Shown here in pieces: positions 35,296 through 44,380 of a stretch of 64,000 bases of DNA. The stretch is from Microbacterium sp. M28 (lineage in GTDB: Bacteria > Actinomycetota > Actinomycetes > Actinomycetales > Microbacteriaceae). The position numbers and the translations under genes are program-made. The notes beneath the pieces are model-generated. The model saw only the letters and a list, made by a program, of their open reading frames with translations. It did not search any database and was not told where the DNA came from. Within the stretch, counting starts at the first letter, position 1, and each line of letters starts with the position of its first letter. The stretch spans positions 868,001-932,000 of the forward strand of contig NZ_CP107546.1 of assembly GCF_025836995.1 (NCBI RefSeq). The letters run 5' to 3'.

Positions 35296-35359
35296 GAGGG
35301 CGAAGGGACCGATGGTCTGAGCCTCAGACCGCGACGACGGCGCCGGTCCCTTCGCCCTC
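35296..35359. terminator. Nested hairpins joining the 3' ends of the GH2 and SDR genes
   Basis: A 16-bp perfect inverted repeat (35296-35311 with 35344-35359) encloses a second hairpin, GGTCTGA-GCC-TCAGACC (35314-35330). The right arms are inside the C-terminal codons and stop of the convergent SDR gene, so coding sequence doubles as terminator. Confidence 0.75.
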
Positions 35360-35923
35360 GATCACCTCGACGAACGCTCCGGCGACGTCGGAGGCCGGGA
35401 CGGGCGTGAACCCGGGGAAGCTCGCGTGGTAGCCGGGCGCCTCGAGCAGCACGTTCGGGCTGATCGCGTTGATGCGCAACCCGCGCGGAAGGTACGGGGC
35501 AGCGGCGCGGACGTACGCGTTCAGGGCGCCGTTTGCGACCGAGGCCGCAGCACCCGTCGGTACCGGGCGGCCGTCGAGGATGCCCGTCGTGACCGTGATG
35601 GAGCCGCCGTCGCGCAGTCGCGTCGCCGCGAGCGCCGCCACGGAGATCTGGCCCAGCGTCTTGTCGTCGAAACCGGCACGGAAGTCGTCCTGTGTCAGCT
35701 CGCTCAGGGGCTTGAACGGCACCGAGCCCACTGCCGTGACGACGGCATCCAGGGGCCCGACGCGGTCGAACAGTGCGACGAGCGAGTCTTCGTCGCGGAG
35801 ATCGACGCGCTCGCCGGTGCTGCGCGATGCGCGGGTGACGTGGTGTCCGCGGGCGTCGAGAACGTCGGCGACGGCCGATCCGATGAGTCCCGAGGCTCCG
35901 ATGACGAGGATGTTCTGAGGCAC
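35324..35923 (-). CDS. Short-chain dehydrogenase-like protein without the YxxxK pair
   Basis: The 199-residue protein has the Rossmann start ILVIGASGLIGSAVADVL and the late RINAISPN block of SDRs, but is short and has Ala and Asn where the catalytic Tyr and Lys of YxxxK should be (GAAASVANGALNAYVRA). Such atypical SDRs exist as a recognised subgroup whose activity is uncertain. The start is GTG. It is divergent from cydDC, and its 3' end forms a nested hairpin with the GH2 gene. Confidence 0.82.
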   Translation of the reverse strand: MPQNILVIGASGLIGSAVADVLDARGHHVTRASRSTGERVDLRDEDSLVALFDRVGPLDAVVTAVGSVPFKPLSELTQDDFRAGFDDKTLGQISVAALAATRLRDGGSITVTTGILDGRPVPTGAAASVANGALNAYVRAAAPYLPRGLRINAISPNVLLEAPGYHASFPGFTPVPASDVAGAFVEVIEGEGTGAVVAV

Positions 35924-35978
35924 GATCTGCTCCTTGTGTCGACCTCCAGCCTCTCATTCCGGATCGGTCCGGCAGTAC

Positions 35979-35995
35979 TTCTACGCATTGTAGAA
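35979..35995. promoter_or_regulatory. Candidate BlaI operator at the cydDC promoter
   Basis: TTCTAC-GCATT-GTAGAA is a perfect 6-bp inverted repeat with a 5-bp spacer. Its right half is part of TAGAAT (35991-35996), a consensus-like -10 placed six bases before the cydDC GTG. The same element recurs in the blaI-cydA gap, so a common repressor is likely. Confidence 0.75.
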
Positions 35996-36002
35996 TTCAA
36001 GG

Positions 36003-39000
36003 GTGAGTCGAGCCGAGGTCCCGAACGATCCGTGGGTGCTCGAAGCCGAGCGTGCGGCGCAGGCCCCCGGCTTCCAGCGTCCCGACCTGTCTGCGGTGCC
36101 TCGGCGGTCGCTGTACGGACTCGGCGTGCTCGCGGCGGCGCGAGCCCTCGGACTCGTGCTCATAGCCGAGGCCGTCGCGCGGGGGATCGGCGCGCTCGCC
36201 GGAGGGGGCCTCGATGCGGGCGCGGTCCGGCTGATCCTCGTCCTCGGTCTGCTCGGCGCGCTGCTGCGGGCGGGTGGCGAGTGGGCGACGTCCGTGCTCG
36301 CACGGCGCCTGGCCACCGGCGTCAAGCGTGATCTGCGACGGCGTCTGTGGCGTCGCATCGCGGACGGCGACGTCTCGGGGGGCGGGATCGCCGTTCTTGC
36401 CGCCGACGGGCTGGACGATCTGGACGACTACTTCGTGCAGACCGTGCCGGCGGTCATCTCGGCGGCGGTGGTGCCTCTGATCGTCGGCGCGCGCATCCTC
36501 GGTGCCGACTGGCTCAGCGCGCTCGTGATCGTGCTGACGGTGCCGCTCGTGCCCCTGTTCATGATCCTGATCGGCAAGCACACCCAGCAGCGCACGGATG
36601 CCGCCCTCAGCGCCCTGACGCGCCTGGCGGATCATCTCGCCGAACTCGCACGCGGACTCCCGGTGCTTGTCGGGCTGGGTCGTGTCGCCGAGCAGACCCG
36701 CGCGCTGGATGACATCCAGACGCGCTACCGCACGCGCACGCAGGAGACGCTGCGCTGGGCGTTCCTGTCGGCGCTCGCCCTGGAGCTGATCGCGACGATC
36801 TCGGTCGCGATCGTCGCCGTGTTCCTCGGGCTGCGCCTGCTGAACGGCACCATGGAGCTCGAGCCGGCGCTGCTGGCGCTCATCCTCGCGCCGGAGTGCT
36901 TCACGGCGCTGCGGGAGGTCGGCACCGCCTTCCACGCGTCCCAGGACGGTCTGTCGGTGCTCGACCGTGCGAAGGCGCTGCTCGGCCGCGCGACGGGTGG
37001 CGACGTGCGAGAGCCGGGCGGTGACACGATCCGCATCGAGTCGCTGTCGGTCCGCTACGCGGGGCGCGATCGCCCCGCCCTGGAGATGATCGACGCCGAG
37101 ATGCGAGGCATCACTGCGATCACGGGCCCGAGCGGCGCGGGCAAGTCGACCCTGCTCGCCGCGCTCGCCGGTGTTCTGCCCTCGGACGCCGAGGTCGACG
37201 GCCGAGTGGTCGGGATCGCTGCGGACAGCGTTGCGTGGGCGCCGCAGGCGCCGCGCGCATTCGCCACGACGCCGGTCGACGAACTGGCGCTCTACGGCGC
37301 GGACCGCTCGGCGCTCGATGAAGTCGGGCTCGCGGCGCTCGCTCACGCGTCCGTGGCGGAGCTCAGCCCGGGAGAGCAGCGCCGCTTGGCGGTGGCCAGG
37401 GCGCTCGCGCGCGTGGATGCCGGGGCTCGGTTGCTCGTGCTGGACGAGCCGACGGCTCACCTGGACCCGATCGCGGCCGATCTCGTGCGCGCGGCGATCC
37501 TTCGACGCGCCGATCGCTGCGTGGTCGTTCTGGCCAGTCATGAACCGGAGACGCTGGCGCTGGCGACTGTCGCGATCCCGGTCGGACCGACGATCGACGG
37601 GGCGGTCGCTGCGGCTCCCGACACAGAGGTGGCGCATCATGCCGCCGTGCACGACTCGGAGCGTCCGGATGCGACCCCCGCAGAGGACGGGACCGCGGCG
37701 GGTGAGGTGGTGCGGATCGGCGCCGCGGAGCCCACCCCAGGACGCCTCGCGACCGCCGGGCGGCCGGACCGTCTCACGCTGCGCGCGCTCCTTCGGCCGC
37801 ACCGGTGGGTCTGGATCGCCTCGGTCCTGCTCGCCGCGCTCGCCGCCGGTCTCGGCATCGCGCTCACGGCGGTGTCCGGCTGGCTCATCGTGCGAGCGAG
37901 CATCGAGGAGTACATCATGTACCTCCTCGTCGCCATCGTCGGCGTCCGTGCGTTCGGCATCGGCCGCGCTGTCGGCCGCTATGCCGAGCGCCTGGTGACC
38001 CACCGTGCCGCATTCCAGGTGGTCGATGCGCTGCGCCTGCGGCTGTGGGGCGCGATCGCGGCACGAGGCGCGGGGTCGCGTCGCCTGCTCGAGGGCGGCG
38101 CACCACTGGACTACCTCGTCACGCTCGCCGACGATCTGCGCGATCAGCTGCCCCGCGTGCTTCCGCCGATCGGTGCCGGCGTGCTGGTCATGGCAGCGGC
38201 GATCGTCACCACGGGGTTCGTGACGCCGCACCTGACCGTGCTCGTCGCGCTCATGCTGGTGCTCGCAGTCGCGACGGCATCTCTCGTCGCGATCACCTCC
38301 GAGCACGGCGCGGGCGCCGCGCGCGTCGCTGCTCGCTCGGAGATCGTGCGGGGAACGGCCGCGCTCACGACGGCCTCGGACGATCTGCGCGGCAACGCCG
38401 CGTCGAGGGCTGCGCTGGACGTCCTGGATGCCGCGGCCGCTCGGCTCGCGGAATCGGAGCGCCGCGCGGCGTGGTCCGCCGGGCTGGGGTCGGCGATGGT
38501 GACCGCGGCGTTGGCGGTGCTGGCCGTCGTGATCGCGCCGCTGTCGTCGCAGGTGCCGGCCGAGAACGCGTCCGTGATCGCTCTGCTCGCCCTCGCGTTG
38601 ATCGAGCCGCTCATCGGTCTCGTGGCCGCGGCGCACCGTGTTCCGTCGCTGCGTGCCCTGCTGGCGCGCCTGGGCCCGGTTCTGCAGCCGGCTCCTGCAC
38701 CCCGTTGGGGGACCTCGACGCCGGATGCCGAAGTCGAGGAGCTCGCCCTGGACGACGTGACGATCCGGTATCCGGGTGCTGCGCATCCGGCCGTGGCCGA
38801 CGTCAGCGGCACGGCCCGCCGTGGGCGCTGGCTCGTCCTGGGCGGGCCGTCTGGCTCGGGGAAGTCGACCGTGCTGTCCGCCGTCATGGGGGCGCTGCGC
38901 GTGGAGCGGGGGGCCATCGTCGCGGACGGCGCACCCCTCACGCACCTGGAGGAGCGCGCGTGGCGCGACCGTGTGGCCTGGTGTCCGCAGGACGCGTACG

Positions 39001-39386
39001 TCTTCGACTCGACGCTGCGGGGGAACCTCCTGCTGGCGCGTACGCGTGCGGACGCCCCGAACGAGCAGGCCATGCGGTCCGCATTGGAGCGCGCCGGGCT
39101 GGGCGGGCTGCTGGGCGGCCTGTCGGACGGGCTCGACACTCGTGTCGGAGCCGGGGGATCGGCGCTCTCGGGAGGGGAACGTCAGCGCCTGGCGGTCGCG
39201 CGGGCGCTGTTGACGCGCGCGGACGTCCTCCTGCTCGACGAGCCGACCGCGCACCTGGACGAGCCGACCGCCGCGGCCATGATGGCGGATGTGCGTATGG
39301 CGACCGCCGATCGCGTCGTGCTGCTGGTGTCGCATCGCGGGGGAGACCGAGAACCGTCCGACGACGTGGTGACTCTCCCACGGTGA
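36003..39386 (+). CDS. cydDC: Fused CydD-CydC thiol-reductant ABC exporter
   Basis: The 1127-residue polypeptide contains two complete ABC exporter halves. The first has membrane helices in about 30-280, Walker A GPSGAGKST near 375, signature LSPGEQRRLA near 454 and Walker B LLVLDEPT. The second has membrane helices in about 600-870, Walker A GPSGSGKST near 947, signature LSGGERQRLA near 1054 and LLLDEPTAHLDEP. CydDC exports cysteine/glutathione and is needed to assemble cytochrome bd. A single-chain fusion is known in Micrococcales. GTG follows TAGAAT by six bases, so the transcript looks leaderless, and the -10 lies in the candidate BlaI site. Confidence 0.92.
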   Translation: MSRAEVPNDPWVLEAERAAQAPGFQRPDLSAVPRRSLYGLGVLAAARALGLVLIAEAVARGIGALAGGGLDAGAVRLILVLGLLGALLRAGGEWATSVLARRLATGVKRDLRRRLWRRIADGDVSGGGIAVLAADGLDDLDDYFVQTVPAVISAAVVPLIVGARILGADWLSALVIVLTVPLVPLFMILIGKHTQQRTDAALSALTRLADHLAELARGLPVLVGLGRVAEQTRALDDIQTRYRTRTQETLRWAFLSALALELIATISVAIVAVFLGLRLLNGTMELEPALLALILAPECFTALREVGTAFHASQDGLSVLDRAKALLGRATGGDVREPGGDTIRIESLSVRYAGRDRPALEMIDAEMRGITAITGPSGAGKSTLLAALAGVLPSDAEVDGRVVGIAADSVAWAPQAPRAFATTPVDELALYGADRSALDEVGLAALAHASVAELSPGEQRRLAVARALARVDAGARLLVLDEPTAHLDPIAADLVRAAILRRADRCVVVLASHEPETLALATVAIPVGPTIDGAVAAAPDTEVAHHAAVHDSERPDATPAEDGTAAGEVVRIGAAEPTPGRLATAGRPDRLTLRALLRPHRWVWIASVLLAALAAGLGIALTAVSGWLIVRASIEEYIMYLLVAIVGVRAFGIGRAVGRYAERLVTHRAAFQVVDALRLRLWGAIAARGAGSRRLLEGGAPLDYLVTLADDLRDQLPRVLPPIGAGVLVMAAAIVTTGFVTPHLTVLVALMLVLAVATASLVAITSEHGAGAARVAARSEIVRGTAALTTASDDLRGNAASRAALDVLDAAAARLAESERRAAWSAGLGSAMVTAALAVLAVVIAPLSSQVPAENASVIALLALALIEPLIGLVAAAHRVPSLRALLARLGPVLQPAPAPRWGTSTPDAEVEELALDDVTIRYPGAAHPAVADVSGTARRGRWLVLGGPSGSGKSTVLSAVMGALRVERGAIVADGAPLTHLEERAWRDRVAWCPQDAYVFDSTLRGNLLLARTRADAPNEQAMRSALERAGLGGLLGGLSDGLDTRVGAGGSALSGGERQRLAVARALLTRADVLLLDEPTAHLDEPTAAAMMADVRMATADRVVLLVSHRGGDREPSDDVVTLPR

Positions 39387-39410
39387 CCGCCGGTACGAGA
39401 AACGGATGCT

Positions 39411-39457
39411 GTGACGGATCACGGACCGATCGACGTGAGACATCCGTGATTCGTCAC
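39411..39457. terminator. Bidirectional terminator between cydDC and the M56 gene
   Basis: A 15-bp stem with one mismatch (39411-39425 with 39443-39457; GTGACGGATCACGGA against its near-complement) and a 17-nt loop lies in the gap between convergent genes. Confidence 0.75.
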
Positions 39458-39485
39458 CGTGTCCGTGAAACGTCGCCGTCCTCGA

Positions 39486-40310
39486 TCAACGAGCGAGGGG
39501 AGTGAGCCGGCGGAAGCGGTCGCTGACCCGCGTCGAGCCCGACACGACGCGCTCGGCGCCCGGGACGCCGCTCGCGCCGACCGCGAGGATCGCACGCGCG
39601 AGGACCTCGTCTCGTACCTCGCGCCTGGCGTGATCGTCGGCGAGCATCTCGACGAGGGCCGCGACCTCGGCCTCCGCGCGTGCGGCGATCGGGAACCAAG
39701 GCAGCGCCGAACGCCAGGCGCGGAACGCCAGCAGCAGCAGATCGTGGCGCTGCTCGACGTGCGCGCGCTCGTGCGCGATCACGGCGACGAGCTCATCGGC
39801 ATCCAGCCGGTCCAGCAATCCCTGCGACAGCACCGTCACCGATCGCGCGCCGTTCGGCAGGCAGTAGGCCACCGGAACGGCGTCGTCGATCACTCGTGTG
39901 CGCGCCCGCGTCGGGTGCGGCGATGTGAGCATGTCGAGCAGAGCGAGGTGGCGGTGACGCTGCCGGGTCACCTGTACGACCGTCACGGCGAGATGCGCCA
40001 GCAGATACACGGTGAAGGCGATCGCGGGGATCAAGGCGATCCAGGGGTGGCCCGGGGCGACGGAGTACCCCGCCAGCGCCAGTGCGCCGATCATCGACAA
40101 CCCGCCGGCGAGTCCGATCGCCTGCCAGAGCAGCAGCGCGATCACCGGCATCCGCATGGGCCAGGACGTGCGCGACAGCGCCACCGGCACGGGCCACGCG
40201 AGAGCGACCGCTACGACGCCGAGCGCGATGGCTGCGGAGACGATCACCCCGTGCGGGATGACCAGTGCGCCGACGAGCGCTTCGTCGCTCACAGCGGCCA
40301 GCGGGCTCAT
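39486..40310 (-). CDS. M56-family membrane metallopeptidase (BlaR-like, no sensor domain)
   Basis: The roughly 274-residue protein has three or four membrane helices (about 14-40, 53-80, 90-114) and a cytosolic gluzincin domain with H180-ERAH184 in ELVAVIAHERAHVEQRHD. It lacks the extracellular penicillin-binding domain of BlaR1/MecR1, so the signal it senses is different or comes through the membrane part. M56 peptidases cleave their cognate BlaI/MecI repressor. It follows blaI by 10 bp in the same direction. The start is uncertain; an open frame continues upstream into blaI. Confidence 0.85.
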   Translation of the reverse strand: MSPLAAVSDEALVGALVIPHGVIVSAAIALGVVAVALAWPVPVALSRTSWPMRMPVIALLLWQAIGLAGGLSMIGALALAGYSVAPGHPWIALIPAIAFTVYLLAHLAVTVVQVTRQRHRHLALLDMLTSPHPTRARTRVIDDAVPVAYCLPNGARSVTVLSQGLLDRLDADELVAVIAHERAHVEQRHDLLLLAFRAWRSALPWFPIAARAEAEVAALVEMLADDHARREVRDEVLARAILAVGASGVPGAERVVSGSTRVSDRFRRLTPLAR

Positions 40311-40320
40311 GGGCAGAGCG

Positions 40321-40677
40321 TCAGGCCGCGCCGGAGAGCAGCTGACGCAGGACGGCCGCATCCTCGGGGGACACGCCACCCACGAAGCGCTCGAGTACGG
40401 CGGTGCGGTCGCCGGCATCGCCGAGGACCGAGTGCATGAGTTCGGCGACATGATCCGCCCGAGATGCGACGGCCGTGTAGCGGTGCGGTCTGGCGGAGCG
40501 GTCCGATGCGACGAACCCCTTCTTCTCCAGCCGCGAGAGCACGGTGAGCAGGGTCGTCACCGCGAGTGCGCGCCCCTCCGCATCCAGCTGTTCCTTCACG
40601 TCGTACGCCGTGACGGGGGTCGCGGCATCCCAGATCGCATCCATGACGGTGCGTTCGAGTTCTCCGAGCGTTCCCAT
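40321..40677 (-). CDS. BlaI/MecI/CopY-family repressor
   Basis: The 118-residue protein starts MGTLGELERTVMDAIWDAATPVTAYDVKEQL with the winged helix and recognition helix (TTLLTVLSRLEKKGFV), and has a C-terminal dimerisation helix pair (about 80-118). Proteolysis by the M56 partner would inactivate it. GGAGG lies seven bases from the ATG. It is divergent from cydA with three phased TTCTAY-N5-GTMGAA sites between them, one overlapping its own TAGAAT -10 (40696-40701, minus strand). It is therefore probably the regulator of itself, cydAB and cydDC. Confidence 0.92.
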   Translation of the reverse strand: MGTLGELERTVMDAIWDAATPVTAYDVKEQLDAEGRALAVTTLLTVLSRLEKKGFVASDRSARPHRYTAVASRADHVAELMHSVLGDAGDRTAVLERFVGGVSPEDAAVLRQLLSGAA

Positions 40678-40696
40678 GTCATTCCTCCGGGATCTA

Positions 40697-40755
40697 TTCT
40701 ACCCCCAGTCGAATTTGTTCTATGCTCTGTCGAAGAAGTTCTACAACTGGTAGAA
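40697..40755. promoter_or_regulatory. Three 21-bp-phased BlaI operators between blaI and cydA
   Basis: Three 17-bp elements lie at 40697-40713 (TTCTACCCCCAGTCGAA), 40718-40734 (TTCTATGCTCTGTCGAA) and 40739-40755 (TTCTACAACTGGTAGAA). Starts are exactly 21 bp apart, two helical turns, so dimers would bind one face. The third is a perfect inverted repeat and contains a TAGAAT -10 for cydA (40751-40756); the first contains the blaI -10. A 12-bp palindrome ATTCACGTGAAT (40755-40766) abuts the third. Confidence 0.8.
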
Positions 40756-40798
40756 TTCACGTGAATCCCTGGACCAGGCTCTTTGAAGGAGACCAGCA

Positions 40799-42382
40799 GT
40801 GGACGTTCTCGACATCGCCCGGTGGCAATTCGGCATCACGACCGTTTACCACTTCCTCATGGTGCCGCTCACCCTCGGGCTCGGCATGTCCGTCGCCATC
40901 ATGCAGTCGATGTGGGTGCGCAGCGGGGACGAGAAGTTCCTGCGGATGACGAAGTTCTGGGGCAAGGTCTACCTGATCAACTTCATCGTCGGCGTGGCCA
41001 CCGGCCTCGTGCAGGAGTTCCAGTTCGGCATGGCCTGGAGCGAGTACTCCCGCTTCGTCGGCGACGTCTTCGGTGCGCCGCTGGCCATGGAGGGCCTGCT
41101 CGCCTTCTTCGTCGAATCCACCTTCCTCGGCATCTGGATCTTCGGCTGGGGCCGCTTGCGCAAGGGGCTCCACCTCGCGGCGCTGTGGTGCGCGGTGATC
41201 GGCTCGTGGATCTCGGCGTACTTCATCATCGTCGCGAACTCCTGGATGCAGCACCCCGTCGGTGTCGAGCTCGGAGACGACGGACGGCCTGTCATGACCG
41301 ACGTCTGGGCGGTGCTCACCAACAACACCGCACTGGCCGCGTACACGCACACGATCCTCGGCGCACTCGTCGTGGCGGGCATGTTCCTCATCGGCATCTC
41401 CTGGTACCACCTGTGGCGCCGCCGTCACGACGGCATCGACACGGTCGACGAGAAGGGCTACGTCGTCGTCGGCGCCGCGGATGCCGTGCCAGGGCGCGAT
41501 CGCAAGGACCACGGCGTGTGGCTGTGGTCACTCCGGTTCGGAGCCGTCGTCGCGATCCTCGGATTCGCCGGCACTGTCGCGACCGGCGACATCCAGGGCA
41601 AGCTCATGTACGAGCAGCAGCCCATGAAGATGGCGGCGGCGGAGGCGGCGTGCCACACCGGGTCGGCGTTCTCGGTGCTCTCGCTCGGCGACCCCGGCTC
41701 CCGCGACTGCGCGGACGTCATCACCCTCATCGAGATCCCTGGCGTACTCGGTTTCCTCGGCACGGGGGAGTGGGGCGCGGAGATGCCCGGCATCAGCGAC
41801 CTCGAGCCGGAGTACGTGAACCAGTACGGCGAGACGATCCCCGATGACGAGCTCTACGGAGACCGCGCGGGCAGCGAGGTCGAGTACGTGCCGGTCATGT
41901 GGGTGACGTACTGGGGCTTCCGGCTCATGATCGGGCTGGGTGGCATCGTCGCGGCCGGCGCCGTGATCGCGCTGTGGCTGACCCGCAAGGGGACGGTGAT
42001 GCGATCGCCATGGGTCATGCGCCTGGCGCTGCTCGGCATCGTCGCGCCGTTCGCGGCCAACATCGCAGGCTGGATCTTCACCGAGATGGGGCGTCAGCCG
42101 TTCGTCGTCGCGCCGAACCCGGATGCCACGGGCGTCGATGGCGTGTTCATGTTCACCGCGGCGGCCGTGTCGCCAGGCGTCACGGCGGGAGAGATGCTGT
42201 TCTCCGTCATCACCCTGACAGCGGTCTACGGAGTGATGCTCGTGATCGAGCTGTTCCTGATGGTGAAGTACATCCGCGGCGGAGTGGCGGCGTCGATGCC
42301 GGAGCTCGCGCCCCATGCGGATGCCGCTGACGATCGACCCGACGACGACAAGCGCGACGATGTGCTCGCGTTCGCGTACTGA
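40799..42382 (+). CDS. cydA: Cytochrome bd ubiquinol/menaquinol oxidase subunit I
   Basis: The 527-residue integral membrane protein has the haem ligands of CydA at H18, H184 and M377 and acidic proton-path residues E98 and E106 (E. coli H19, H186, M393, E99, E107). The GWGR block and about nine helices are present. The Q-loop between helices 6 and 7 is of the short type common in actinobacteria. With CydB it oxidises menaquinol and reduces O2 at low oxygen tension without pumping protons. The start is GTG, with GAAGGAGA upstream. Confidence 0.97.
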   Translation: MDVLDIARWQFGITTVYHFLMVPLTLGLGMSVAIMQSMWVRSGDEKFLRMTKFWGKVYLINFIVGVATGLVQEFQFGMAWSEYSRFVGDVFGAPLAMEGLLAFFVESTFLGIWIFGWGRLRKGLHLAALWCAVIGSWISAYFIIVANSWMQHPVGVELGDDGRPVMTDVWAVLTNNTALAAYTHTILGALVVAGMFLIGISWYHLWRRRHDGIDTVDEKGYVVVGAADAVPGRDRKDHGVWLWSLRFGAVVAILGFAGTVATGDIQGKLMYEQQPMKMAAAEAACHTGSAFSVLSLGDPGSRDCADVITLIEIPGVLGFLGTGEWGAEMPGISDLEPEYVNQYGETIPDDELYGDRAGSEVEYVPVMWVTYWGFRLMIGLGGIVAAGAVIALWLTRKGTVMRSPWVMRLALLGIVAPFAANIAGWIFTEMGRQPFVVAPNPDATGVDGVFMFTAAAVSPGVTAGEMLFSVITLTAVYGVMLVIELFLMVKYIRGGVAASMPELAPHADAADDRPDDDKRDDVLAFAY

Positions 42383-42409
42383 CACCGATCCGCATCGAGA
42401 GGAATGACC

Positions 42410-43447
42410 ATGGAACCCCTTCCCGTCGTCTGGTTCATCGCGATCGCCGTGCTGTGGATCGGATACCTGCTGCTCGAGGGATTCGACCTCGGCGTCGGCA
42501 TGCACATGATCTTCTCCACGCGGTCGGAGCGCGACCGCCGGGTCATGCTCAACACCATCGGGCCGGTCTGGGACGGAAACGAAGTCTGGCTCATCACGGC
42601 CGGCGCGGCGATCTTCGCGGCGTTCCCCGCTTGGTACGCCTCCTTGTTCTCGACGCTGTACATCCCGCTGACCATCACACTGGTCGGTCTCATCGTGCGC
42701 GCGGTCGGCATCGAGTACCGCGGCAAGATCCACACCGAGCGGTGGCGCACGTTCTGGACGTGGATGATCGGCCTGGGGTCGCTGGTGGTGGCCTTCTGCA
42801 TCGGTGCCGCACTCGCGCTGACCTCATTGGGGCTGCCGATCAACGCGAACGGTGATCGCGTGGGCGGGCCGTTCGTCTGGTTGACGGTGCCGGCAGTGCT
42901 CGGCGGATTCGCCGTGGTCGGCTTCTCGCTGGCGCATTCGTCGACGTTCCTCGGGCTCAAGGCTGACGGCCCGGTGCGAGAGCGTGCGGGTCGCTTCGCC
43001 GCCGCGTGGGCACCGCTGTGCCTGGTCCCGGCCGCGGTCTGGGCCATCTGGGTGCAGCTCGCCCACGGCGGGAATCTGCTCGCCTGGGCGTTCATCGCGC
43101 TGGCGGTCGTGGGTGCGGCGGTCGGGTGGATCTCGGCCCGGCGCCGCCGCGAGGGGTGGGCGTTCATCGGATACGCCGGCTTCGGCCTGTTCGGCGCCGG
43201 GGCGGTCTTCGCGGGCATGTTCCCGCTCGTGCTCCCCTCGACGGTGGACGCCGCGTTCGACCTCACCGTCTGGAACGCGTCGAACAGCGCCTACACGCTT
43301 GGCGTGATGACGGTGGTCGCGGTGGTGGCGCTCCCGGTGATCCTCGCCTACCAGGCGTGGAGCTACTGGATCTTCCGCAAGCGCGTGACCCCCGGCATGA
43401 TCCCGGACGCGCACATCGTGCTCCCGGCCGTCCTGCGGGCGTCCTGA
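42410..43447 (+). CDS. cydB: Cytochrome bd oxidase subunit II
   Basis: The 345-residue protein has about eight helices and the CydB motifs LLEGFDLGVGMH, GPVWDGNEVWLITAGAAIFAAFPAWYA and the RGKI loop. It is the structural partner of CydA. GAGAGGA ends seven bases before the ATG at 42410, which is therefore preferred over the ATG at 42404. It is 27 bp downstream of cydA and clearly in the same operon. Confidence 0.96.
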   Translation: MEPLPVVWFIAIAVLWIGYLLLEGFDLGVGMHMIFSTRSERDRRVMLNTIGPVWDGNEVWLITAGAAIFAAFPAWYASLFSTLYIPLTITLVGLIVRAVGIEYRGKIHTERWRTFWTWMIGLGSLVVAFCIGAALALTSLGLPINANGDRVGGPFVWLTVPAVLGGFAVVGFSLAHSSTFLGLKADGPVRERAGRFAAAWAPLCLVPAAVWAIWVQLAHGGNLLAWAFIALAVVGAAVGWISARRRREGWAFIGYAGFGLFGAGAVFAGMFPLVLPSTVDAAFDLTVWNASNSAYTLGVMTVVAVVALPVILAYQAWSYWIFRKRVTPGMIPDAHIVLPAVLRAS

Positions 43448-43459
43448 CGCGGCTCGTCC

Positions 43460-44380
43460 TCAGCCCAGAACGAGCGTCGCGATCAACAGCACGGGCACGC
43501 ACCCGATGGTGGTGATGAAGACCGTGTCGCGCGAGATCGCCTCGCCGATGTCGTAGCGCTGCGAGTAGTTGAACACGTTCTGCGCGGTGGGCAGTGCCGC
43601 GAGGACGACGACGATGAGGACCTCGTGGGCGCTCAGGCCGAACACGAACTGCGCGAAGACCCAGGCGATCACGGGCATCACGAACAGCTTCAGCGTGGAC
43701 GCGAGCAGCACATCGCGGCGGCGACCGGACGCGCCGAGGACGCGCTGCCCGAACAGCGATATCCCGTAGCTGATCAGCAGCACGGGCACGCAGGCGTTCG
43801 CGAGCAGCAGGGCGGGCTCCATCACGATCGGGGGCAGATCGATGCCGAGCACCGAGACGAGCGTCCCGAGCGCCGAGCCGAGGACGATCGGATTCGTCGC
43901 GGTGCGCGCGAGCGTGCGCCAGATCGAACTGCGCCCTGCCGTCACCGCGTCGAGGATGGCCAGGGAGATCGGCGTGAACACGAGCAGCTGCAGCAGCACC
44001 ACGGGCGCCGGGTAGGCCGCGCTTCCCAGCAGGTACAGAGACAGCGGGATGCCGATGTTGTTGGAGTTCACCTGGCCGGCCGACAGCGCCCCGATGACGG
44101 TCTCTCCGATATCGCGCTTCCAGGCGAATCGGGCGACGAGGGCGTACGCGGCGATCACGACCAGCGCGGCGATCGCCGAGACGGGCAGCAGCGACGAGAA
44201 CAGGACCTTGGCATCGGCCTGCGCGAGGACGGTGAACAGCAGGAACGGCGACAGCACGAAGAAGGTGAGACGCCCCAGGACATGCCGCGCGTGCGGTCCG
44301 AGCAGATCGATGCGGCCGATGATGTAGCCGACGGCGATCGCGACTCCCACGACGGCGAATCCGGTGAGAGTCTCGAGCAC
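43460..44380 (-). CDS. AEC-family transporter (auxin-efflux-carrier type)
   Basis: The 306-residue protein has about ten helices arranged as two five-helix repeats and the family motif in the first half (GQVNSNNIGIPLSLYLLG) with the matching one in the second half (ALPTAQNVFNYSQRY). These carriers move small dicarboxylates or other anions. The frame extends upstream, but the GTG at 44380 is six bases after a TACGCT -10 and starts at MLETLTGFAVVG, the normal N-terminus. It is convergent with cydB; no substrate gene is near. Confidence 0.88.
   Translation of the reverse strand: MLETLTGFAVVGVAIAVGYIIGRIDLLGPHARHVLGRLTFFVLSPFLLFTVLAQADAKVLFSSLLPVSAIAALVVIAAYALVARFAWKRDIGETVIGALSAGQVNSNNIGIPLSLYLLGSAAYPAPVVLLQLLVFTPISLAILDAVTAGRSSIWRTLARTATNPIVLGSALGTLVSVLGIDLPPIVMEPALLLANACVPVLLISYGISLFGQRVLGASGRRRDVLLASTLKLFVMPVIAWVFAQFVFGLSAHEVLIVVVLAALPTAQNVFNYSQRYDIGEAISRDTVFITTIGCVPVLLIATLVLG

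Follow-up and report, generated by a model that had tools for sequence, protein, structure and literature searches.

A BlaI-type repressor and a sensorless membrane protease as the likely switch of the cytochrome bd genes in Microbacterium sp. M28

Cytochrome bd is a respiratory back-up and drug-tolerance enzyme, and how Actinobacteria turn it on is, to our knowledge, poorly understood. We addressed this question at a locus of Microbacterium sp. M28 (contig NZ_CP107546.1), contained in a 64,000-nucleotide stretch (positions 868,001 to 932,000, hereafter the window), in which the gene order is cydDC(+), protease(-), blaI(-), cydA(+), cydB(+). From sequence comparisons, we consider it probable that BlaI represses cydAB, cydDC and its own operon through four operators, and that impaired respiration probably triggers cleavage of BlaI by the protease. 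The features, in window coordinates, are as follows.

36003..39386, plus strand: cydDC, fused CydD-CydC exporter, 1127 amino acids
39486..40310, minus strand: membrane zinc protease, M56/M48-type, 274 amino acids; BlaR1-like without sensor domain
40321..40677, minus strand: blaI, BlaI-type repressor (Penicillinase_R), 118 amino acids
40799..42382, plus strand: cydA, cytochrome bd subunit I, 527 amino acids (PF01654, 499.8 bits)
42404..43447, plus strand: cydB, cytochrome bd subunit II, 347 amino acids (PF02322, 322.3 bits)
35979..35995, no strand: operator O1, perfect dyad TTCTACGCATTGTAGAA, cydDC promoter
40697..40713, no strand: operator O2, one mismatch, blaI-proximal
40718..40734, no strand: operator O3, two mismatches, middle of the blaI-cydA array
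40739..40755, no strand: operator O4, perfect dyad, cydA-proximal
35991..35996, plus strand: predicted -10 TAGAAT of cydDC, overlapping the O1 half-site; start codon 6 nt downstream
40696..40701, minus strand: predicted -10 TAGAAT of blaI, overlapping O2
40751..40756, plus strand: predicted -10 TAGAAT of cydA, overlapping O4

The operators of the cyd locus

We defined the operator consensus as TTCTAC-N5-GTAGAA, counted mismatches against it and used TTCTAY-N5-GTMGAA as its degenerate form. An initial annotation of this DNA had described four such dyads, and all of them are present: those at 35979 and 40739 are perfect, the one at 40697 has one mismatch and the one at 40718 has two. The starts of O2, O3 and O4 are spaced by 21 and 21 bp, so that the separation claimed for the three dyads between blaI and cydA is exact in this genome. 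A TAGAAT hexamer also lies within a half-site at cydDC (35991-35996), cydA (40751-40756) and blaI (minus strand, 40701-40696), as had been noticed. We infer that O2 to O4 form a graded array, with a perfect dyad at cydA and weaker ones toward blaI.

As background controls we used shuffled sequence for the window and the reversed pattern for the genome and its relatives. Five places in the window have at most two mismatches, namely the four cyd-locus dyads and one at 1770 with two mismatches. At three mismatches we found 24 places versus 3.1 expected from the shuffles; most of them are scattered across the window and, therefore, the shuffle control understates the background. Throughout the 3.37-Mb genome, the exact degenerate motif occurs at five places, four of them at the cyd locus and the fifth (genome position 265085) within an open reading frame (ORF) call, while the reversed pattern gave 0 forward and 1 reverse matches. 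The genome scan proposed in the initial annotation thus finds the exact motif concentrated at cyd and not scattered, and both perfect copies of TTCTAC-N5-GTAGAA in the genome are at cyd genes. Allowing one mismatch, there were 36 strand matches (7 at cyd) versus 21 in the reversed control. There are 28 places with 0-1 mismatch, 22 of which were inspected as loci: four are cyd, and 17 of the other 18 lie within ORF calls, doubtfully so at L008; L022 is outside any call. Given the level of the control, and since the inspected matches away from cyd are almost all in ORFs, such weak matches mean little. We found no convincing sites for an additional BlaI regulon in this genome beyond cyd, and the best dyads in its ctaC and atpB regions have 3 and 4 mismatches, with none below three.

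Regarding the repressor, residues 4-115 match the Pfam family PF03965 with 80.4 bits (cut-off 22.6). A marginal PF03965 match at genome position 3261980 (23.1 bits) looks MarR-like by eye, so we count one BlaI in the genome. A PADLOC search gave a sole match, of BlaI to a CARF model at 20 bits, which we disregarded. With one BlaI and one operator cluster, BlaI looks dedicated to cyd in this genome; the comparisons below make it the likely reader of the cyd dyads. All the cyd genes of this genome sit behind these candidate operators. The single cydDC ORF passes both the NCBIfam CydD model (617.2 bits, cut-off 435) and the CydC model (503.1 bits, cut-off 329.05), and an Rfam scan of 35300-43500 gave zero matches at gathering scores.

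Conservation of the divergon and its operator code

Are the dyads kept where blaI and cydA are kept together? Of 150 genomes evenly drawn from the family (Microbacteriaceae), 88 have a BlaI match and 114 a CydA match. blaI lies divergent from cydA within 302 bp in 60 of the 114 cydA genomes, the source genome among them; every linked pair is divergent, and the protease gene follows blaI in 60/60 linked loci. Among BlaI matches of at least 99 bits, 58 of 59 are linked to cydA. We counted 136 N5 dyads with up to two mismatches in 8,443 bp of blaI-cydA intergenic sequence versus 15 in 926,458 bp of flanks (16 versus 0.016 per kb). When N5 or N6 spacers are counted, at least one dyad is present in 60/60 intergenic regions, and two to four in 56/60; the motif, whose absence at the cyd genes of relatives would have spoken against the initial annotation, is thus there in every linked genome. 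Perfect dyads have a spacer of 5 bp in 108 cases and of 6 bp in 16, the latter from 10 of the 60 loci (L108, L093, L094, L097, L099, L101, L103, L106, L112 and L130), with none at 0-4 or 7-15 bp and none in the reversed control. L108 is the sole locus without an N5 dyad at two mismatches or fewer, and carries three N6 dyads and no other kind. With both spacer lengths present, a BlaI dimer would have to tolerate N5 and N6.

The co-occurrence of sites and repressor was tabulated from genome-wide counts of two-strand sites. These are present in 55/60 genomes with a linked blaI-cydA pair, in 6/20 with cydA and an unlinked BlaI, in 6/8 with BlaI and no cydA, and in 2/28 with neither, versus 0/34 with cydA and no BlaI match (a one-strand match occurs in 9 of these 34). 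The five linked-pair genomes without a two-strand site are G006 and G089 (TAC-type, see below), G134 (N6), and G049 and G064 (imperfect sites). The associated p value of about 1e-20 is illustrative only, because the genomes share ancestry.

The wider sample told us which features of the array are general. The exact 21-bp spacing of the three sites is found in 9/9 non-Agrococcus relatives whose BlaI is more than 80% identical (L145-L151, L153 and L156), all with a perfect cydA-proximal site and one or two mismatches in the other two. In the family at large, centre spacings of 20.5-21.5 bp make up only 17 of 92, against 58 of 22-26 bp, and we discarded the idea that strict helical phasing at 21 bp applies generally. 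Hence, the phased sites expected in relatives hold for the close Microbacterium-type clade but not for the family, whose conserved trait, judged from these spacings, is close packing (21-26 bp dominant) and not same-face phasing. The -10 element built into a half-site fared similarly: the TAGAAT overlap at cydA is present in 8/11 Microbacterium-type loci inspected, but just 2/59 family loci have a T after the cydA-proximal site, and we rejected the overlap as a rule outside Microbacterium-type loci. Two positions beyond the dyad arms, A and T are weakly preferred (65/136 and 79/136).

One could argue that the dyad serves a different regulator, or is left over from a promoter, and is tied to blaI by linkage only, and the overlap of the half-site with a -10-like TAGAAT in this genome would fit such a reading. 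We regard it as very improbable. TAGAAT is not kept in the family, as the 2/59 loci show, while the dyad is, and two-strand sites are absent from the 34 genomes with cydA and no BlaI match. Besides, searching for Rex, FNR and CRP boxes with their usual motifs gave best matches of 5, 3 and 4 mismatches (the first being the best Rex-like match in the region), and these were not used. The covariation of operator type with BlaI residues also argues against it, as follows.

In a sample of 148 genomes of the class, whose lists were read by eye, divergent blaI-cydA pairs within about 300 bp occur in 22 of 82 CydA genomes from five families, and one family shows the divergon in every one of its 10 genomes with a BlaI match. 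Other arrangements exist, with blaI-protease-cydAB on one strand in G300, and cydABDC-blaI-protease on one strand in G254, where TAC-type dyads lie ahead of cydA. Elsewhere in the class, the divergon of other families comes with TACTAC or TACGAC half-sites. To compare half-sites with repressors we used 80 loci, 60 from the family and 20 from the class survey (G300 and G254 among these 20 are not divergons). The 59 loci whose BlaI has E51 and P64 contain 124 TTC-type N5 dyads and 0 TAC-type, and the 21 loci whose BlaI has Y40, M44 and A64 contain 39 TAC-type N5 dyads and 0 TTC-type. At least one full dyad (N5 or N6) of its own type is present in 78/80 loci and a dyad of the other type in 0/80; under the strict pattern, L142 and L356 lack a full dyad altogether. 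Single half-sites cross slightly, with 4 TAC among TTC-type loci and 5 TTC among TAC-type loci. TAC-type L143 and L144 are inside the family and TTC-type L343 is in another one, so the match between operator and BlaI is more than taxonomy. Among the sequence data, this covariation argues most strongly for BlaI, as opposed to another protein, as the reader of the dyad. Since the two types of BlaI may also represent phylogenetic subgroups, these residues are only candidates for the ones that do the reading.

Relocated cydDC genes and dyads away from cyd

In most loci of the family cydDC lies downstream of cydAB, so operators before cydA could cover it as well. In part of Microbacterium it lies beyond the protease gene, and there the promoter of the relocated cydDC carries a perfect dyad in 7/7 relatives (L145, L146, L148, L149, L151, L153 and L156) and in this genome. 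These eight dyads have eight different middle 5-mers and invariant arms. L147 and L150, close relatives in which cydDC is still behind cydAB, have no dyad with two mismatches or fewer at that place. In this genome and the seven relatives TAGAAT ends 6-7 nt ahead of the cydDC start codon, and a leaderless cydDC mRNA is therefore predicted. Other relocations weigh against this pattern: a dyad accompanies the relocated cydDC in 0/6 Agrococcus loci (L154, L155, L159, L163, L164 and L169), L086 shows none at its relocated cydDC, and neither do G106 and L167 at their displaced copies.

Regarding targets other than cyd, we surveyed 12 genomes hand-picked for sites away from cyd, leaving out G085, which is also site-rich. 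They hold 49 forward perfect sites versus 11 in the reversed control, and 25 of the 49 lie between blaI and cydA. The remaining 24 sites make up 22 places; 23 flanking proteins at 21 of them were searched against Pfam (L287 was left out). The flanking genes encode flavohaemoglobin (hmp, 3 cases), COX2 (ctaC, 3), atpB (2, in relatives G040 and G148), pta (2) and adenosine deaminase (2), the rest being single or unknown. At least two non-cyd sites, one in a GH3 ORF and one at tilS, are probably due to chance and, with 11 matches in the reversed control for these 12 genomes, chance could account for about half of the 24; the hmp, COX2 and atpB repeats, from two genera each, are not easily explained in this way. 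The adenosine deaminase cases are two species of one genus with a perfect dyad at the gene start (L275/G052 and L276/G122).

The claim of a dedicated switch therefore holds in part. BlaI is the likely reader and looks cyd-dedicated in this genome, but in some relatives perfect dyads also lie at ctaC, atpB, hmp and pta. A pure aa3-to-bd switch is therefore too narrow a description of such systems in general.

Some further loci deserve mention. In G135, three perfect dyads precede the cydA match at 0.23 Mb and the sole BlaI match is at 3.00 Mb (L295, L296), with a one-mismatch dyad near this distant BlaI; control of cydA without linkage to blaI is possible there. Upstream of a PCuAC copper-chaperone gene, a perfect dyad is present in two small family genomes that have no CydA match, G013 (L301) and G095 (L302). 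In G058, a BlaI gene far from cydA has three one-mismatch dyads nearby, around genes for DUF5134 and CopC-CopD (L306:978-4010). The BlaI-cyd locus of L180 looks like that of Amnibacterium; its metagenome bin is titled Acidobacteria bacterium, a label that is probably wrong for this contig.

The membrane protease, the proposed release of BlaI and known systems

What could lift the repression? The protease scores 23.6 bits against Pfam M56, below the cut-off of 31; among 52 orthologues, an M56 match at E 0.001 is found in 23 and an M48 match in all. The gluzincin residues of HExxH and ExxxD (H180, E181, H184, E221 and D225) are invariant in the 52 sequences, and the predicted model resembles the membrane-embedded protease fold of BlaR1, minus the beta-lactam sensor. 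No sensor-domain Pfam match was found in the 274-residue protein, which ends after the protease domain, in agreement with the initial annotation. Of the 60 family orthologues, 52 are longer than this protein in their called form, and many of them have 300-340 amino acids and an extra C-terminal stretch.

The missing sensor bears on the reading that this is a beta-lactam-inducible bla system merely adjoining cyd. The family names would suit it, as would the reported control of blaC by BlaI in Mycobacterium tuberculosis (PMC5473688). Besides the absence of a sensor domain, no beta-lactamase is present among the genes read at the locus and the near-perfect operators of the genome cluster at cyd, so we hold this reading for highly unlikely.

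In the mechanism that we favour, BlaI dimers would occupy the operator array and block the cydA, blaI and cydDC promoters, and BlaI would limit its own level by autoregulation. Impaired respiration would activate the protease, which would cut BlaI, and loss of BlaI would derepress the entire cytochrome bd set simultaneously, the oxidase together with the CydDC exporter. This exporter is required for the assembly of bd oxidase. As a beta-lactam domain is missing, the protease probably receives its signal within the membrane or at its surface, the candidates being the quinol pool, a failing copper-haem oxidase, NO or the membrane energy state. The ctaC, atpB, hmp and copper genes beside the same dyad in relatives suggest a failing copper-haem oxidase or the energy state over oxygen alone.

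BlaI shares its repressor family with CopY, which has a cysteine metal site and is released by copper. Hence, BlaI might read the operators and yet be released by a direct ligand, or by lost BlaI synthesis, the protease having another substrate. This kinship, the weak CopY match of BlaI and the copper genes by dyads where BlaI is not beside cyd (PCuAC in G013 and G095, with perfect sites, and CopC-CopD in G058, with one-mismatch sites) speak for it. However, BlaI has 0 cysteines, it reaches 28.8 bits against the CopY equivalog model, far from the cut-off of 121.95, and the protease gene stands behind blaI in all 60 linked loci. We consider release by a ligand unlikely, and cleavage by the protease remains our preferred explanation.

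A broader reading, which we put forward tentatively and would not yet bet on, is that BlaI and a sensorless BlaR-like protease could form a respiratory-failure relay of Actinomycetes. The protease would read the respiratory membrane and destroy BlaI, raising bd oxidase and, in some lineages, also aa3 subunit II, ATP synthase, the flavohaemoglobin that detoxifies NO, and copper delivery. Its use in beta-lactam control would have come later, and Microbacterium and its kin would hold a cyd-dedicated version with a re-evolved operator code. The locus is a small, self-contained and tractable model, with one repressor, one membrane protease and four operators, and an operator-to-repressor code would allow regulon prediction throughout the class. 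It also presents a family named after antibiotic resistance as a likely respiratory regulator.

BlaI control of respiratory genes is itself known. Binding of BlaI at cyd and atp promoters has been reported in M. tuberculosis (PMC5473688, citing Sala 2009), and BlaI is reported to bind the promoter of Rv1303, which is co-transcribed with the ATP synthase genes, and to lower its transcription (PMC12565901). Within the literature searched, which comprised partial texts with subscription papers outside its scope, we came across neither a blaI-cydA divergon nor its tandem array, operator code or relocated cydDC. What is new here is a BlaI module that is linked to cyd, looks dedicated to it and has its own operator code.

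The pair resembles M. tuberculosis BlaI (Rv1846c) and BlaR (Rv1845c) in that its protease lacks a sensor domain and in that the nearest solved relative of BlaI by sequence is PDB 2g9w (E 2e-17), listed as a conserved hypothetical protein, which we take to be Rv1846c. Unlike that system, the pair is physically divergent from cydA, looks cyd-dedicated and has tandem operators with a TTC-type half-site, whereas 2g9w carries Y40, M44 and A51, the TAC-type residues. From a regulon of the M. tuberculosis type, the cyd operators are present here, but no dyad below three mismatches lies near ctaC or atpB. The system also differs from BlaR1-BlaI of Staphylococcus aureus, as there is no penicillin-binding sensor domain, the regulated genes are others and BlaI reaches 19.8 of the 180 bits of the NCBIfam BlaI model. 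Finally, the SigC copper response of M. tuberculosis ties copper supply to aa3 and bd oxidase expression (PMC7924339); our system would share a possible link between copper, aa3 and bd, with the difference that SigC is a sigma factor and not a proteolysed repressor.

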